Source: Heliocidaris tuberculata (Eukaryota; Echinodermata; Echinoidea; Camarodonta; Echinometridae). Taken from it: a stretch of DNA of 64,000 bases. The stretch lies in assembly GCA_025618425.1 (NCBI GenBank), contig CM046832.1, positions 23,294,359 to 23,358,358 on the forward strand, given 5' to 3'. Shown here one piece after another: positions 3,062 to 62,500 of the stretch. A program made the translations under genes and the position numbers. The notes under the pieces were generated by a model that saw only the letters and a program-made list of their open reading frames with translations, ran no database searches and had not been told where the DNA came from. The number at the start of each line of letters is the position of its first letter. The first letter of the stretch is position 1.

Positions 3062-6025
3062 CTAATTTGAAGGGTGGGGAGCGTATGATTCTATTATATG
3101 TCGCTTAAGTGTAGCTTTCAAGAAGTAAATGGTTGAACAAGACTTTATGTTGTTGGGGAAGTTGTTCCAAATGTCCGGACCAGAATGTCTGATAGATTTG
3201 TGTGTTATTGATAATTTGGGATTTGTAAGATGGAAGTTTCCAGATATGCGAGTAGGGTACGAATGAACAGAAGTATTAAACCTAAACATGTTATGAAAGG
3301 ATGGTGGAAGTAAATTATTAATGTACTTGAACATAATGACTGCTACTTGAATAGTGTTCAAATCGAATATTTTTAGTGTTTTAAGTTTACAGAATAAAGG
3401 ATCAGTGTGAGCTAAGAAATGTGATCCTGTACAAATGCGTATGGCTTTCTTTTGTAGTTTAAAAATAGAGTTAATTTTTGTCGAGCCACAATTTGCCCAT
3501 ACAATATTACAATATGTTATATACGGGAGAACTAGCGTGTTATATAGCAGGAATAAGGTTTCGTGGGGTAAAATAAACTTTAGTTTAGAAATTATTCCAA
3601 TGCTTTTGGAAATGCACATTATAACATGGTGTAAATGCTCATTCCAAGTCAAAGTTTCGTCTATAATTACTCCCAAAAACTTGGACTTAGTCTTCTTCTC
3701 AAGTGGCATGTTATCGATTTTGATATGTATCGGTGTTTCTGTATTATGAGAATAATGTTTAAAATACATGAAATGAGTCTTTTTTATATTAAGAGAAAGT
3801 TTATTGCACTTAAACCAGTTTGATACTTTGTCAATTTCACAATTCAAAGTATTGTTTGAAGATATGAGGTCTTTGTGAGAATAAAAGATATTTGTGTCGT
3901 CGGCAAATAAAACAAATGAAAGAAGGGAGGATGCATTAATGATATCATTGACATAAAGAAGAAATAATAGTGGGCCTAAGATGGAACCTTGAGGAACACC
4001 ACATTGAACTAAAAGAGGATCAGAATCATACCCATTGAATGTAACGTATTGTCTTCTGCTTGTTAAATAATCTCTAAACCATAAAAGTGGCTGACCCCGA
4101 ATTCCATAATGACTGAGTTTGGAAAGAAGAATGGAATGATTAAGTGTATCGAATGCTTTACTCAAGTCACAGAATATACCTACAACATGCTCTTTGTTAG
4201 CTATGGCATTTGTAATTTTGTCATAAATCTGAATTAATGCTAGGTCAGTTGAGTAATTTTTCCTGAATCCATATTGATTTGGAATAAGTATCTTGCGTTT
4301 AGTGATAAATTTTTGTAGCCTATTATAAACGATTTTTTCTAAGACTTTGGATATACTTGGAAGTAGGGAGATGGGACGATAGTTACTAATTTCGTGGGGA
4401 TCGTCTTTTTTGAAAATGGGATTGACTTTAGCTATTTTTAATAGATCAGGGAAAACACCTTGTGAAAACGAGTGATTAAATATGTGAGTTAAAGGTTTTG
4501 CAAGTGGGTAGATTATTTCTTTTAGGAGAGACATACTTATTTTATCGAAACCGTAAGATTTTGAGCTATTAAGAGATTGAGTAATATTAATGATTTCACT
4601 GGGATTTGTTGGGTTTAAAAAGAAAGATTCTCGGTTTTGAATGGAAAGGTAGTCTGTAAAGTGAGCGTGAGTTCTATTAATTTTGCTGGCGAGTTCAGGG
4701 CCGACATTCGTAAAAAATGAATTAAACGAATTTGCATGAAGACTAGGATCCTGTATTTTAGTACCATTTAATGTGATATTATCCATGGGTGGGGGATCTG
4801 TCTTTTTACCCATAACCTCTTTGATGATTTTCCAAGTTGCATTAGTATTTGAACTGTTCTTTTTTATTTTATTAGAAAAATGTAATCTACGGGATGTACG
4901 GATTAATTTAGATAATTTGTTGCGATATATTTTATATGTGTTTAGGTTAGTGTCAGTTGGATTGCGTATATGTAATTTGTAGAGGTGATTGCGTGTTTGT
5001 ATTGACTTCAGTAAACCCTTCGTTATCCAAGGATTCCTGGGTTTATTTCGCATATTTTTCATTTTGCCTAAAGGGATATTCTTTTCGTAATAATACTGTA
5101 ATTTTTTATTAAAATGTTTATATGCAGTATTGACATCATTTACATTATAAACATCAGCCCATCCCTCAAAAAATAAGTCCTGTTTTAGCAATTCTATAAT
5201 ACGTTTGGATTCTTTGCGATATAGAAGTTTATCAATTGATTTAAGGCAACATACTTTGCAATCACAAGTTAAAAATATAGGTAGGTGATCAGAAACTTCA
5301 GAACACAATATTCCCCCGGTGGTTATGCTATTATGTACGTTTGAAAAAATATTGTCAATCTGAGTTGATGAATGTGAACTTATTCTGGTGGGTTTATTAA
5401 TAATCGAAGATAAACCATAAGAGTACATTAACTGCATAACATTGGTTGAATTGCTGTTATCAGATGAGGGGGAGAAGTTGATGTTAAAGTCACCAAGGAT
5501 AAAAATATGTTTATTTTCATCCCCTATTTTATGAAGATTTAAGTCCAGTTCATCACAAAATAATTCACAATTTGAGTCAGGGGGTCTATAGATTAAACCT
5601 ATAATGACATTTTTTACATACGAGTTGTCAATTTCAATAAATAATGATTCTGCTTGTGTTAGTTTGATGTTGGAGCGGATTTTAAAATTTAGATTTTGTG
5701 CAATATAAAACGCAACACCGCCACCTCGCCTTCCTTTGCGATCTGCCCTAATCAATTTATAATTAGGCAAATTGAACATATCTGGAGAATTCTCATGTAA
5801 CCAGGTCTCACTTATTCCAATGACGGAAAATGCAAAGTTATTTAAAGTGTGTAAAAGGTTTTCAACATATTCGAAGTTTTTGTTCAGACTTCTGGAATTT
5901 ATATGTAGAAGTGAAATATTGTCTGGATTATAAGAAAATGTATTGTTGAATTCTAAAGGTGTGTAATATTTGCTTTCGTGTATATCGTCAGCAAGAATAT
6001 CGGGAATGTATGCATGTGAATCCAT
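3062..6025 (-). CDS. Non-LTR retrotransposon ORF2: endonuclease plus reverse transcriptase
   Basis: An uninterrupted 987-residue frame encodes the enzyme that nicks target DNA and copies the element's own RNA. The N-terminal third is an APE-type endonuclease: LLHINSRSLN, then SETWL with the catalytic Glu, GGGVAFYI, GLIYRPP, ILGDFNINF and the SDHLPIF active-site motif. The reverse transcriptase follows: NYRPISLLPSISK, DLSKAFDTLNH, GVPQGSILGPLLF and the catalytic FADDTNIF. A thumb and C-terminal region contain LFLLYNTLVLPYITYCN. The layout and motif style match the CR1/L2/Jockey group; the exact clade needs a tree. The ATG at 6025 directly follows a TAA of an upstream frame. No stop or frameshift is seen, so the copy may be young or active. 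It lies antisense to the GPCR at 8620-14571. Confidence 0.95.
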   Translation of the reverse strand: MDSHAYIPDILADDIHESKYYTPLEFNNTFSYNPDNISLLHINSRSLNKNFEYVENLLHTLNNFAFSVIGISETWLHENSPDMFNLPNYKLIRADRKGRRGGGVAFYIAQNLNFKIRSNIKLTQAESLFIEIDNSYVKNVIIGLIYRPPDSNCELFCDELDLNLHKIGDENKHIFILGDFNINFSPSSDNSNSTNVMQLMYSYGLSSIINKPTRISSHSSTQIDNIFSNVHNSITTGGILCSEVSDHLPIFLTCDCKVCCLKSIDKLLYRKESKRIIELLKQDLFFEGWADVYNVNDVNTAYKHFNKKLQYYYEKNIPLGKMKNMRNKPRNPWITKGLLKSIQTRNHLYKLHIRNPTDTNLNTYKIYRNKLSKLIRTSRRLHFSNKIKKNSSNTNATWKIIKEVMGKKTDPPPMDNITLNGTKIQDPSLHANSFNSFFTNVGPELASKINRTHAHFTDYLSIQNRESFFLNPTNPSEIINITQSLNSSKSYGFDKISMSLLKEIIYPLAKPLTHIFNHSFSQGVFPDLLKIAKVNPIFKKDDPHEISNYRPISLLPSISKVLEKIVYNRLQKFITKRKILIPNQYGFRKNYSTDLALIQIYDKITNAIANKEHVVGIFCDLSKAFDTLNHSILLSKLSHYGIRGQPLLWFRDYLTSRRQYVTFNGYDSDPLLVQCGVPQGSILGPLLFLLYVNDIINASSLLSFVLFADDTNIFYSHKDLISSNNTLNCEIDKVSNWFKCNKLSLNIKKTHFMYFKHYSHNTETPIHIKIDNMPLEKKTKSKFLGVIIDETLTWNEHLHHVIMCISKSIGIISKLKFILPHETLFLLYNTLVLPYITYCNIVWANCGSTKINSIFKLQKKAIRICTGSHFLAHTDPLFCKLKTLKIFDLNTIQVAVIMFKYINNLLPPSFHNMFRFNTSVHSYPTRISGNFHLTNPKLSITHKSIRHSGPDIWNNFPNNIKSCSTIYFLKATLKRHIIESYAPHPSN

Positions 6026-20785: not shown

Positions 20786-48076
<27,291 letters not shown>

Positions 48077-50739: not shown

Positions 50740-53700
50740 ATTTATTTCATTTATTTATTTATTCATAATATTTAATCAGGAAACCCAATCAACAAATGCT
50801 GCTCTCCCTTGGGGTCCTGTACAAAATAAAAATAAAATGCGAGCATCATACATGTGTAGTTAATACATATCAATGATCATTATGTGTAATAAACAAATTA
50901 AAAACATCAGCAATGAAATAACACATGTTTGCTAAAATTACAAACGCAATTGCTAAACAAATTGAATTATAAGGAAGACATTTAAAGATTATTCTGCAAA
51001 TATTGACGGAAGGATGCAAGAGATATGTATATTTTGACAAGAGGGTTCCAAACTGATCCACAGTGGGACCGCTAAATAGTGAAAAGAATGTTTGAAGGAC
51101 TCTGTATTACATTTGGGATAATGTAACTTATTTTGAGACGATGATCTAGTTCCATGTGTATGAAGGTCTTTCCTAAAAGTAAATAACTTCGAAAAACATG
51201 AAGGGGCAATACCTTTCATGCATTTAAACATTAATAAATATCTGAAAAAACGAACTCTATATGTTCAAAACGCATCCAGCCTAAAGAAGCGAATAACGTA
51301 TCATCAGGAGTTATAAAATCTGCTTTTAAAATCATCCTTTGAATCTTTCAGTGTCTTCCTTGAATCTATCCTCCCAAACAGTACAACTATAATCTAGGAT
51401 AGGCATAACCATAGCATTATACAAGGTGAGTAATGTATTTTCATTAACGATTCTAGGACAACTACCCCTAGACAACTACCCCCCGGACAACTACCCCCCG
51501 GAAAACCACCCCCTGGACAACTACCCCTCGGAAAACCACCCCCTGGACGACTACCCCCTAGGACATCTACCCCCCAGGACAACTACCCCCCAGGACAACT
51601 ACCCCCCAGGACAACTACCCCCAGGACAATTACCCCCCAGGACAACTACCCCCCAGGACAATTACCCCCCAGGACAACTACCCCCAGGACAACTACCCCC
51701 AGGACAATTACCCCCAGGACAGTTTTTCCGGGGGTAGCTGTCCAGGGGGTAGTTGTTCGGGGGGTAGTTGTCCGGGGGTAATTGTCCTGGGGGTAGTTGT
51801 CCTGGGGGGTAGTTGTCCTAGGGGGTAGTTGTCCTGGGGGTAGTTGTCCTGGGGGGTAGTTGTCCTAGGGGGTAGTTGTCCTGGGGGGGTAGTTGTCCTA
51901 GGGGGTAGTCGTCCAGGGGGTGGTTTTCCGGGGGGTGGTTGTCCGGGGGGTAATTGTCCAGGGGGTAGTTGTCCGGATACGTCATTAACACACCCCTTTA
52001 AATCTTCTTATTTCACCAAGTTTCCTGCTAACTTTACTATAGTTTGGATACATGTTCCTTCCACGAGAGCTCATTATCTATCGTTACTCCCAAACATTCA
52101 AAGGAAAAAACTTGCTTAATCTCATGGTTATCACAAATTATGTTAAAAGGGGTTTCATTGGACTGCACAGATTGCGATAGTCTAGTTCGTGTACCAATTA
52201 TCATGCATTTTGTTTTTTTCATAATTTATCGTCATGCGGTTTCTTTCTAATCAGTCAACAACATTTTTAAAATCTTCTTGTAATTTACTCTGTATTTCAG
52301 ATAAAGTTGCACCTTCCGCATTTATCGATGTATCATCCGCGTATACATAACAATTTTAGAGTGTTTTAGTACCTTAGGCATATCATTTATAAATATGGAA
52401 AATAATTTTGGGCCCAAGATAGATCCCTGTGAAACACCTTTACAAATTGTTTTACTATCAGACAATGCCCCATTTACAAACACGCTGTGACCTATCAAAT
52501 GAATAAGAGTGAAACCACTTGATGGCATCTGAGGAAAAACCGTGATATTTCAACTTACATAATAACAAATCTAAGTCTACCAAGTCAAATGCCTTTTTGA
52601 GATCGATGAAGATAACACCAACCATTTTCCCATTATTAATACTTGTATACCAATCATTAACCATACAGACCAAGGCAGTTTCAGTTGAATAATTTTTCCT
52701 AAAACGAATCTAGTTCCATGTTTATAATCTTTTCTATTATCTTAGAAATTACACTTAACACAGAGATAGGTCGAAAATTATTCATTTCTTCAAAATTACC
52801 TTTTTTATGAAGAGGTAAAACTTTAGCTTCCTTCCATTCACGAGGGAAACAACAAGATGAAAAAAGATTTATTTATCAAAGTCACAAGAGAGGGAATCAC
52901 ACCTTGACCACATAATTTAAGTATTTTACAACTTATACCATCAAGGCCACAAGAAGCATTTGAGTTTAAACTTTTTTTATGGCGTTTACAACAATATCAG
53001 CATTTACAATGGGTAAATTGAAAGTTACATTTTCTTGAGATAAATTATGCTGAGCCAAAAACTGACTTCCAGATACTTCACTACTATCAGCAATCAAGTC
53101 CTTAGTGACTGATATGAAATGATCATTAAAATGGTTTGCAATATACACCTGGTCATCAAATTCATTTCCCTCAACTACAACTTTATTTAAAGAAGGTTTA
53201 CCTTTGCCAGGTAGTATTTCTGTAATACATTTCCATAAATCACTATTATTATTTTTACAATCGAAAATTCTTTTATGGAAATATTTCTTCTTACTTGACT
53301 TAATTAATCTATCAACTTCATTTCTAAGTTTTTTATACATGACCCAATCAACTTCAGAATTTGATTTCATGAATTTCTTCAACTTCTTATCTCGCTGTAT
53401 CATAATATCCCGTATATCACTTGTAATCCAAGGCGTATGTTTTACGTGTCTTTAAAGGTATAAGTGAGTATCAACAATATTTAATAAAGATCGTTTCCAT
53501 TTTCCCCATAGAACATCAATATCATTATTTTGACCCCAAAAGCTCCAATCCATATTAAATCAGCTATGTGAACAAAAGCATTGCTTTTAAAAATTTGTTT
53601 GTAAATATTCAACATATTTATCAATACATTCATGAACATTATTTTGATGGGTGTTGTTCTACTTTCAGTAGTATATACTTCTCGCCTTTTGCAGATAGAT

Positions 53701-56552: not shown

Positions 56553-59500
56553 ATGTCTGGCAGAGAAGGTAAGCTTGCACCATATAAATGGGATTTTGAT
56601 TTACCTGAAGGTAGCAACGATAAAAAAATGTGATAAATAGGTCGATCATATGTTTTCAAAATTTTGGGTAAATTTTGAGTTTTGTTCTATCACAAACACA
56701 CATCGAAGTAAGTGGGACAACATATTGTCATTAGCAAACATGTTGGATAAAAATGTTATCAATTGTAATACTAAATTACTAATAGTTCTATCTATTTACT
56801 TGTGACTTGTGTGTGTGTGTGTGTGTGCGTGCATGTGTAAGAATGACATTTATCAGTCATCTCGTGAAATAATCCACTGCTCATTCATCATGTTGGTTGG
56901 GGACCCCACTGGAAATAAGCTCTCGAGCTTTCGCGCTCCTTGAATTTGGCGACCACAAGTTCAGCGACCAATTACGGTGTCGACAAAACGACAAATAAGA
57001 AAAAGAAAAAAAACTAACTGTTCAAAAAAGGCTTATTCGGCCGGCAAAAACACTTCTTTAAAGCTTTGTCATGTTTGTAGAACTGGAAATAGGTCTACAG
57101 TAGCTATACGAGCTCTGTGGCTTATCAATCTGGTACTGGCCACAGAGCTATACAGCCCATGCCTATACTGTGTGTGGAGGAGGATATCAACCAAAAAATC
57201 TAGATCTAAATATCACCATTTCCCACATACTGTGAGCCATGCACACCACCCTCGGAGTTTGCTAAAGGGGTTACCTTCCAGGATCAACTAAGATTGTACA
57301 AATTGAATGAATAAAAAAGAAAAAAAGCCACAAAATTGGCAGGTGTGATCAGGTTTTTTTACCTTGCACTTGTAACTTGTATATATGGGACTACACATGC
57401 AAGGTAAGATTGGTGTAGTCCCATATATACAAGTTACACAGTGTAACTTGTATATATGGGACTACATCAATCTTACCTTGCATGTGTAGTCCCATATATA
57501 CAAGTTACAAGTGCAAGGTAAAAAAACCTGATCACACCTGCCAATTTTGTGGCTTTTTTTCTTTTTTATTCATTCAATTTGTACAATCTTAGTTGATCCT
57601 GGAAGGTAACCCCTTTAGCAAACTCCGAGGGTGGTGTGCATGGCTCACAGTATGTGGGAAATGGTGATATTTAGATCTAGATTTTTTGGTTGATATCCTC
57701 CTCCACACACAGTATAGGCATGGGCTGTATAGCTCTGTGGCCAGTACCAGATTGATAAGCCACAGAGCTCGTATAGCTAGGTCTACAGCCGAAATAGAAA
57801 TGAACCGGTTTTCAAAAAGTATCATCGTAGGTGATTGATAATTTTTGCTAATAACGTCATTTTAGTTCTATGATTGGAGAAATGACAGAACAGCGAACGC
57901 AAATAAAAATCATCACGAATTTTCGACGTTTTTATTTAACCTCTGTATTTCGCTATCATTATGCTGAATGATGTTGTTCGAAATGGGAATTATGTAGAGT
58001 GTAATGTAACTACAAGCCTATTTGTAAGTTAAAACAGTAAGATCCAGACCTCTTGCCCCGGTATGTGGCATATACCACCAGAAAGCTGAACTCTTCAGCT
58101 TTAATTTGGTATAGTCAGATAAGAATTAAAAATGTCGATGAAAATTTAAGAGAGCTTTTATTTAACCACTGTATTTCGCTATCATTATGCGGACTGACTT
58201 TATGTTCGAAGACGGGTTATTGAGTGTCTAAGTTTAAGTTAAAACGGTAAGATCCAGACATCTTGCCCCGGTATGTGGCATATAGCACCAGAAAGCTGAA
58301 TTCTTCAGCTTTAATTTGGCATAGTCAGTTAAGAATAAAAAATGTCGATGAAAATTTGAGAAAGCTTATATTTAACCTCTGTATTTCGCTATCATTATGC
58401 TGACTGACTTTATGTTCGAAGCCGGGTTATTGAGTGTCTAAGTTTAAGTTAAAACGGTAAGATCCAGACATCTTGCCCCAGTATGTGGCATATAGCACCA
58501 GAAAGCTGAACTCTTAAGCCTTAATTTAGTATAGTCAGCTAAGAATAAAAAATGCCGATGAAAATTTAAGAGAGCTTTTATTTAACCACTGTATTTCGCT
58601 ATCATTATATGCGGACTGACTTTATGTTCGAAGCCGGGTTATTTAATGTCTAAAGGACAAAGTTTAAGTTAAAACAGTAAGATGCTGACATCTTGCCCCG
58701 GTATGTCATATTTTCCATCATAAAACTGAATATTTTACACACTCATTCCTGGAGTACAATCCTGTATCGCCTCACTACGCCTACTTGAATTGAAGTTTCC
58801 GACCGGTAATGAAGCGAAATTGACGGTGCAAATATTTTTTTGTTTTGTTTTGTCTCTTTTGAGGACACCGTACAGCGATTTTCTATTGTTCTCGACCGCG
58901 TCACGCTTCGGTGCCTCCGAGTGGTCGCTGGAGTGGTCGCCAAAGGTAGCGCAATGAGCTTTCGTGGGTTATCCTGTTCAAGCTTACATAATTTTGATCT
59001 GATATTCTTTTATTGTTGTATGTTGGAGGCTTGGCAAATAAAATCAATCAATCAATCAATCAATCAATCATGTTCATGGTAGTGCTGGTATCGGCATGGA
59101 AAATCTATGTCGCCATGTCGCAATAAAATTAACGCCGATGTCGACATGTGTCGACATCTGGACATGAGTCAAACAAGTCTAAACTCGGGTCGCTCCCGTA
59201 GTGACCGTACACTATTAAACCAGAGTTACCCGACACAAATTCACAAGAGCTTTACATGGAATACATGCACTATGTCCTCACAGGCTCACACTCGCAGTCA
59301 TACTCACTTACAGTTCTCAAAGATGCACACTGTCAACTATTTGCCCCAAAATTTGTTTTGTATGATCCAATTTATCAAGCATTAATGAAAGTCATGCGGT
59401 GCGAGTCAGCTAGTGTCGCATATCTAGGCGCATGTACATGTACGTAATGTGTACCGGTCGTCGCAGCTAGATACGCAGCGATCGTGTCGCGCGCGCGCGC

Positions 59501-62500
59501 TGCTAATGCGTATGTGAAACAAATCACGTACGCGCGGACGACGCCTCGGCGAGGTACATGTAAAAAGACCCATTTTATGTCGCCATCGGAGCATGCGTGT
59601 CGACATGTCGGCAAAGTCCAAAACCAGTACTTTTGTCGCCATAGTGGCGACATCAGGCGTGTCGATACCAGCACTAGTTCATGGTGTAGATCAACCTAGA
59701 CCGAAAATTCTGTCTCTCGTTCATTAGCCTCTTATTAATTTTGACAGGGTCCGCCATTCACTTAGAGACAGAAACGCTCCTGTCACGATCAGTCGGCATG
59801 TAGTCGTAAAAAGGCTTGTAGACCCCCTTCTTAATTATTTATTACAAATTGAATAGATTAGGCCTAGGCTCTAAACATTCACAAATCTGTTCACTTACCA
59901 ATTTGACTGTTTTATTCCTTGTAATGTTCCTTTTTCAGGTAATTCAGGGTCCAAGTTATCTGTTTGAAAATCTTGCTGCCGTATTCAAACGGTTTCCTCT
60001 GCGCAGGAATGAATTAACATCACACCTGTTCTAGTCTATGTACAAGGGAAAATTATTGTGAAGGGAAAAAATCAATGTGTGCGAGTTCGTAATGAATTCA
60101 TCACATTTTTCCCTTCATAATAATTTTCCCTTGTACGTACATGTAGACTAGAACGGGTGCGATGTTAATTCATTCCTGATCCTGCGCAGAGGAAACCTTT
60201 TGAATATGCCTGCAAGATTTTCAAACGGATAATAACTTGGACCCTGAATTACCTGAAAAAGGAGCATTACAAGGAATAAAACAGTCAAATTGGTAAGTGA
60301 ACAGATTCGTGAATGTTTAGAGCCTAGGCCTAATCTATTCAATTTGTAAAAAATAATGAAGAAGGGGGTCTACAAGCCTTTTTACGACTACATGCCGACT
60401 GATCGTCGGCTCTCAGAAAGTTTGCACAGCAGAGTGATAGGAGCGTTTCTGTCTCTAAGTGAATGGCCGACCCTGTCAAAATAAAGAGGCTAATGAACGA
60501 GAGACAGAATTTTCGGTCTAGGTGTAGACCTAGATCTATATAGATCTATATAACTTGTTAGGTCGTTTCATTAAATCAACCCAATGACAGTCATAACTGT
60601 TGTCGGCGATCTACGGAAATGTCATGGGCCTGACAAACTGTTTCACGACAGCTCATGGATATCGATACATAGTCTATATCACAGCACAGTCCATTGGAAT
60701 TATCGTCAATTACCCAAACAGATTTTGAGGCTCAGTTTTTCTCAAACTAAGCTAACTTAGACCTCTATTCCAAAATGTCAAAAATGGCAGCGAAGATGAA
60801 TGCCGGTAATACAAACATCCCGTTTACATGAAAAGATATGTTACTTATGGCATCTTAGAATTTATAAAATTGAGAAGACTAGAGGAGGTTTTTGCGATGT
60901 ACGAATCTAGATTTGTAGGTAAGAGGATACCATAATTGACTAATTATGGAAAGAAGACCCAAATCATGTTCACTTCAGAGAAAATGATTAAATTAAGATA
61001 TTTTATGGCCCAATTTTTAATATTTATTCATTAAAATATACATACAAAATTATTCATATCAAAGCATTGCATGAAAAGGGAAAATATAGGAAAAATACAT
61101 GATAAATTGTTGTCGTTCTTATGGGTCTGTATATACAGACTGTTCCATTTTTGATGCTGATTCTATGGTAGACGGATGTGGGTATTTTTAATATTAATCT
61201 CATTTACTTGTTGGGGGGTCAAGAAACCATAAGAACATATTGTCCGTCTGTACAATATTATAATACGAACATTAGTAACACTATTTGATAAAGGAATGGT
61301 AAAGGATGGTGTTTGGAGATCAGGAAATAAATGTTCTCTTAATTTACTTTCTTATTTTTTCGCAGCCCATAGACTAACTAAAAGCTGGCTTGTGATGGCG
61401 TTCTAAAAAGATATGACAGGTCTGGAGTACCGACAAGTCACTTGTCAGCGAAGTTGTCGCTGGCCTTGGCAAAGACAGCTTTGTGTAACACTTTAATAGC
61501 GGACAAGTTGAGCGACAGTGTTGAGATGTCGCTGATCTTGTCGTTATGACGGTTTGATGAAATGACCCCCAGATAGACCTAGATAGATCTAGAGTCTATA
61601 GGCCTACACACTTGTGACAGGCCTATTTTTTACACAACACAGTACCGTACTATGTTGTGTAAAAGATAGGCCTGTTTAATGTATTCAAATAAGTAATCGT
61701 ATGCAAATCCCCCGCGCAAAAAATTTCTAATTGGGTTAATGTCGATCTTGTAACTTTAACAATTTAGCCTGTTTATTACTGTAATATATTGTCTGGATGT
61801 CAACACAATTTTCCCTAGATCTCTAGACAAAATCATGAAATTGGACTCATAAGAACTAGGGTAAAGAAAGTGAAAAGAAATCGCATCTTGATATGGATAC
61901 CATTCCATGTGGCGTTGAAAAATTGTTTCATTTTTCAACAAATGAGTACATACTCCAAAAGTTCAAGGGGCTGTTGGTTTACATGTAATTAAATTTACAT
62001 ATAGAGTGTATGATGGTTTCATGAGACCCAGCCAAGCTGCACTGATGGAAAAGTGTGAATTCAATTTTATACTTGGCCCTACATGTACATTGTAGACAGC
62101 GTTGTCACTACAGTGGTCGGCGCCGGTCGGGACCTTCCACCACTCGAAATTTCTGACCAGCACTCAATGCAATATCACACCCACTAATTTCCCCACTGAC
62201 AGAAAAAAATACTACGATTTTGACCTACAAACATGCAATTGTTTTTTAAGCCAGCAGATTCAATGACAAAATTTTACGTACGCATAAGCAAATTTACATG
62301 AAATCGGGCGAAGAATTTTCCTGGAAGGTATACACCTATACACAGCCACTAGCGCAGCGCAGCTCCTTCCCAAATATGAATCATATTTACGTATAAATTG
62401 TTTACGTACCCCTACCCGTACCTGTGCGTGCATGCCCAACAACAAATCACTACACACTGTACTCGTCTCCAAGCTGGAATGTCGCAATCAGCTGATTTGC

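Follow-up and report, generated by a model that had tools for sequence, protein, structure and literature searches.

A probable foldback transposon with arms of tandem 15–16 bp units, inserted in a decayed LINE, and its relatives in other genomes

We find that positions 51449–51981 of the window (the whole 64-kb stretch of DNA analysed here) very probably hold a non-autonomous cut-and-paste (class II) transposon of the foldback type. An earlier note on this DNA had proposed a foldback transposon, and that reading is supported by the anatomy of the element, by its flanking duplication, by an empty-site comparison and by relatives in other genomes that show a fixed border and opposed arms, one of the four copies tested carrying a duplication of its own.

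Results

Structure of the element

The element is 533 bp long, nearly all of it taken up by two opposed arrays of a 15–16 bp unit. The left arm (51456–51720, + strand) was parsed into 17 units of the type GGACAACTACCCC(C)N followed by a last partial unit, and the right arm (51730–51974, − strand) into 16 units of the same type in the opposite orientation. Unit lengths are mostly 15–16 bp, and a short centre (51721–51729) separates the arms. When up to two mismatches are allowed, all 33 matches to the 14-base unit GGACAACTACCCCC in the 64-kb window fall inside the element (0.21 expected), which confirms the opposed arrays described in the earlier note. The same search found neither copies of the element nor isolated units elsewhere in the window. 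Tandem Repeats Finder reports two separate arrays, and it is plausible that repeat pipelines would label the element a plain minisatellite. Because such elements can pass as plain minisatellites, a mobile family may hide under the label "simple repeat".

The + strand folds into one long hairpin at −280.3 kcal/mol, compared with −115.3 kcal/mol (sd 5.2) in 100 shuffles (z = −31.6). A gapped alignment of one arm against the other shows 231 identical positions out of 253 and contains 27 columns with gaps. The order of variant units also agrees between the arms, to a moderate degree that 37 of 2000 shuffles reached (0.0185). Both arms contain a GGAAAACCACCCCC unit followed by GGACGACTACCCCCTA, and near this pair both switch from outer 15-bp units to inner units mostly ending in A, the inner units being more uniform than the outer ones. 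The matching unit order and the common switch point suggest that the arms were copied or converted from one another. All open reading frames within the element derive from the arrays, and the element is therefore unable to move by itself. No transposase was found.

Directly outside both ends lies the same 8-bp sequence, TCATTAAC (51441–51448 and 51982–51989). The chance of an exact match at this spacing is 1e-5, and 0.0028 at random places when a slide of 0–7 bp is allowed at each border, so that the perfect 8-bp duplication claimed for the element stands. Counting the C at 51448 as part of the element would shorten the duplication to 7 bp. Each array's first GGA is separated from the duplication by 7 bp; read outside-in, these are GATTCTA on the left (51449–51455, + strand; the beta end) and CGTATCC on the right (51975–51981, − strand; the alpha end). 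These two ends are unlike and are not inverted copies of each other.

Other hairpins were observed in the window. Positions 57101–57779 form a 679-bp perfect palindrome, with 339-nt arms that are 100% complementary and a 1-nt centre, flanked by a perfect 9-bp repeat, GGTCTACAG (57092–57100 and 57780–57788). It may be a second hairpin element with a duplication of Mutator length or, in part, a palindromic artefact of assembly. Another long hairpin, spanning 830 bp with both arms included, occupies 59694–60523, and inspection by eye showed no perfect flanking duplication at its ends. A short hairpin at 37302–37514, with 100-nt arms starting TACACTCTAAAAA and a 13-nt centre, is possibly a small inverted-repeat element.

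Insertion site

The element sits in a decayed LINE on the − strand, whose protein matches extend over 51085–53451. This LINE is recognisable from three RVT_1 pieces with E values of 1.9e-6, 2.2e-5 and 0.003, none of which reaches the curated cut-off of Pfam. For the empty-site comparison we used as query the window's own uninterrupted LINE ORF (3062–6025). In the occupied site, the LINE protein match ends at the element. Removal of 541 bp (the element and one duplicate) makes the match run ungapped over 15 residues, LKGCVNENTLLTLYN against LKFILPHETLFLLYN. The resulting gain in score is small for the two pieces concerned (65.1 to 66.6 and 48.9 to 53.5 bits), and the far side beyond the duplicate contributes only four residues (LKGC), two of the four being identical to the reference. 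This continuity fits an insertion into a pre-existing LINE, for which it is modest evidence. The earlier note had stated that removing the element restores the LINE reading frame. The LINE is indeed recognisable and its match continuous across the junction, but the restoration is only local, since the host ORF carries other frameshifts and stops too.

The ORF that served as query lies on the minus strand and encodes 987 uninterrupted residues with endonuclease and reverse transcriptase domains. Such an uninterrupted frame may reflect recent LINE activity in the genome.

Relatives in other genomes

A protein collection was searched with translated pieces of the array and then with one of the proteins retrieved, P0013, which yielded 54 different predicted proteins. 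These relatives come as predicted proteins alone, so that statements on their DNA are deduced from codons. The presence of the unit in them is a matter of selection, the query being either the array or P0013; their borders, flanks and exact ends, and the duplication of P0037 described below, were not selected for by the queries.

Three forward unit frames (GQLP, DNYP and RTTTP) occur among the first 39 relatives. In these 39 proteins, 199 spacings between units are shorter than 40 nt, and they are most often 15 nt (82), 16 nt (47) or 17 nt (20). The array starts at V/M-[T,L,S,K]-GQ in 27 of the 54 relatives, these rows being those that fit the pattern V/M/A-T/L/S/K-GQ-L/P; the remaining ones have their first unit in another frame, other preceding residues or no GQ unit. 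Counted otherwise, a V stands at residue −2 before the first GQ[L,F,P] in 26 of the 50 relatives with enough flank. Among the 27 relatives with the fixed border, 2 of 351 pairs have an upstream 4-mer in common (P0049 is without upstream residues, and P0012 and P0052, whose contigs are listed with equal lengths, may share one contig), and the order of unit variants behind the border is common to many of them. A fixed border, unrelated flanks and a common unit order look like what dispersed insertions of one element would leave. Given recognisable relatives at unrelated places in other genomes, the window array likewise has the look of a mobile element and not of a simple repeat grown by slippage.

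Five relatives (P0016, P0019, P0026, P0027 and P0054) have in common a non-repeat stretch starting QITEFPKHKSTKF. P0007 contains PDZ domain residues that match animal proteins, for instance Disks large homolog 4, and therefore the host of at least one relative is probably an animal. The arrays of P0005, P0022 and P0023 read like TTATQDNCHPGQLPP, which would imply a variant of the same minisatellite with GGACAACTGCCACCC as a sister unit. Exact unit-pair patterns gave 0 matches in viral and prokaryotic sequence collections, from which records near the source genome were possibly excluded. Four 13-base forms of the unit, searched in the literature, matched 5 papers that, judged by title, are on other subjects.

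Units in both orientations were detected in five relatives: a script picked out P0013, P0024 and P0037 (3 of 39), and inspection of the last 15 by eye added P0042 and P0049. Such two-armed relatives were favoured, because the second query spanned the turn-round. In all five the reverse unit frames come after the forward ones, P0024 having a single reverse unit. P0037 shows the residues IFW, a 9-nt repeat, on either side, each exactly 7 nt beyond the outermost unit. This offset is the place predicted from the window copy, which has 7-bp ends inside its duplication. A compatible 9-nt pair has a frequency of 0.0007 at one fixed place and of 0.11 when 27 placements are allowed. No flanking duplication was found in 27 placements in P0013, P0042 or P0024, so that P0037 is the only positive of the four copies tested; P0049, which is without a left flank, stood outside this test.

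We then compared the ends of the relatives with those of the window element. Against CGTATCC, the left end of P0037 scored 7 compatible positions out of 7 (null 0.0008) and that of P0013 scored 6. The right ends of P0013, P0037 and P0049 are each compatible with GATTCTA at 6 of 7 positions (null 0.029 each). This comparison with the window's own end is not post hoc, whereas the 7/7 matches to a beta form GGTTCTA are, because that form was deduced from the relatives after inspection. The ends of P0042 fit both window ends poorly, with a best score of 5 of 7. As the ends of P0037 and P0013 are compatible with those of the window element, the pair of unlike ends recurs in these two relatives, and P0049 agrees for its one scored end.

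Discussion

The foldback reading implies that a transposase would be supplied in trans, and with moderate confidence we regard a Mutator/Phantom-like enzyme as the most likely one. Such an enzyme would use the ladder of 15-bp units in each arm as its binding sites, join the ends, cut beside the 7-bp ends and insert the element with a stagger of 8–9 bp. We read the ladder as a binding platform because the tandem arm repeats of Galileo, a Drosophila element of the P superfamily, bind its transposase (available sections of PMC3688188). The arms may grow, shrink and homogenise through slippage and conversion between arms, which would account for the order of units common to both arms and for the uniformity of the inner ones.

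One competing account has a minisatellite expanding on the spot and becoming partly inverted, with no transposition involved and TCATTAAC a coincidence. Such arrays do expand by slippage; the gradient from variable outer to uniform inner units would follow from it, and the window holds no second copy. Against this stand a perfect duplication placed exactly at both borders, a LINE match that becomes continuous once 541 bp are removed, flanks free of isolated units, and a unit that elsewhere starts at a fixed border in unrelated flanks. On these grounds we rejected a purely local minisatellite, which we consider highly improbable. Superfamilies other than Mutator, for example hAT or P, also give duplications of about 8 bp, and the 8 bp seen here do not single out Mutator among them. 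A foldback element moved by another such superfamily, its foldback arms having arisen independently, is rather unlikely in our view. It is in keeping with the fact that foldback-like elements carry different transposases, such as the P-type enzyme of Galileo (available sections of PMC3169594). However, Tm1, a Mutator/Phantom element, has the same succession of unlike 7-bp ends, GGA and tandem units, as far as the same sections describe it, and the duplication of P0037 is 9 nt, a usual Mutator length (8–11 bp in the available part of PMC6446971).

A further question, compatible with the foldback transposon favoured here, is whether the element is a sea urchin TU element, as the earlier note proposed, or a direct homologue of one. 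TU elements of Strongylocentrotus purpuratus have long inverted repeats, tandem units of about 15 bp and 8-bp duplications. The window element resembles this general description in its long inverted repeats of short tandem units and in its 8-bp duplication; we give identity or direct homology a fairly low probability. A sea urchin element is counted among foldbacks, with Lieberman et al. 1983 as the reference (available sections of PMC4079207). If the host is an echinoid, the element may connect modern sequence data with a transposon known since the 1980s.

Only tentatively do we extend the foldback reading to a widespread family with minisatellite arms. Its members would have kept the unit GGACAAYTACCCC and two unlike 7-bp ends across distant genomes, an alpha end like CGTATCC/NGTNACN and a beta end like G[G/A]TTCTA. 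In this family the array would be a conserved multi-site platform for the transposase, and the family might be a source of dispersed animal minisatellites, by shared ancestry or by horizontal spread. The foldback class itself is already known, and it is the shared unit and ends in other genomes that add interest. The fixed 7-bp ends offer a handle for finding all copies, as well as the transposase that moves them. The common unit in other genomes makes it testable whether foldback arms retain a tandem unit because it forms a ladder of binding sites or through passive expansion.

Comparison with known systems

Tm1 of Meloidogyne (root-knot nematodes) is a Mutator/Phantom-type foldback and appears to have the layout closest, among those described, to that of the window element. 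According to the available sections of PMC3169594, its copies are mostly non-coding, a coding member carries a MULE (Mutator/Phantom) transposase, and the duplications are mostly 8–10 bp (45 of 53 elements). These sections describe inverted arms with a variable number of tandem units and, just inside the duplication, unlike 7-bp ends followed by GGA. The window element, with GATTCTA/GGA and CGTATCC/GGA, has this layout of ends and tandem units, the units being of similar length (13–15 bp in Tm1, 15–16 bp here), and its 8-bp duplication lies within the Tm1 range. The two differ in other respects. The sequence of the Tm1 unit, CGATTCAGTATCCGC, is different from GGACAACTACCCC(C)N; the Tm1 ends are CGGTTAA and CCTACCC, different from GATTCTA and CGTATCC; and a Tm1 arm has 1–9 consecutive units, compared with 16–17 here. 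Because the unit and end motifs differ from those given in these sections, we do not class the window element as a member of Tm1. Two strings of the published Tm1 unit, as given there, recur in the window element: CGATTC at its left end, if the final duplicated base is included (51448–51455), and GTATCCG at its right end (51974–51981); this may well be chance. Muta1, which belongs to a group merged with Phantom (available part of PMC6446971), has duplications of 8 or 9 bp (available part of PMC5225508).

Two Drosophila elements share some of these features. Tetris of Drosophila virilis is a non-coding foldback with 8–9 bp duplications in three complete copies (available sections of PMC4079207). 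As described there, its arms reach 1,735 bp and contain as many as three domains, and its middle is variable, whereas in the window element the arms measure about 260 bp and there is hardly any middle. Galileo, for which a P-type transposase is known, has arms of 0.5–1.2 kb in the sections cited above, again longer than the window arms. The likeness to Galileo is in long, internally repetitive inverted ends, whose repeats in Galileo hold the binding sites of its transposase.
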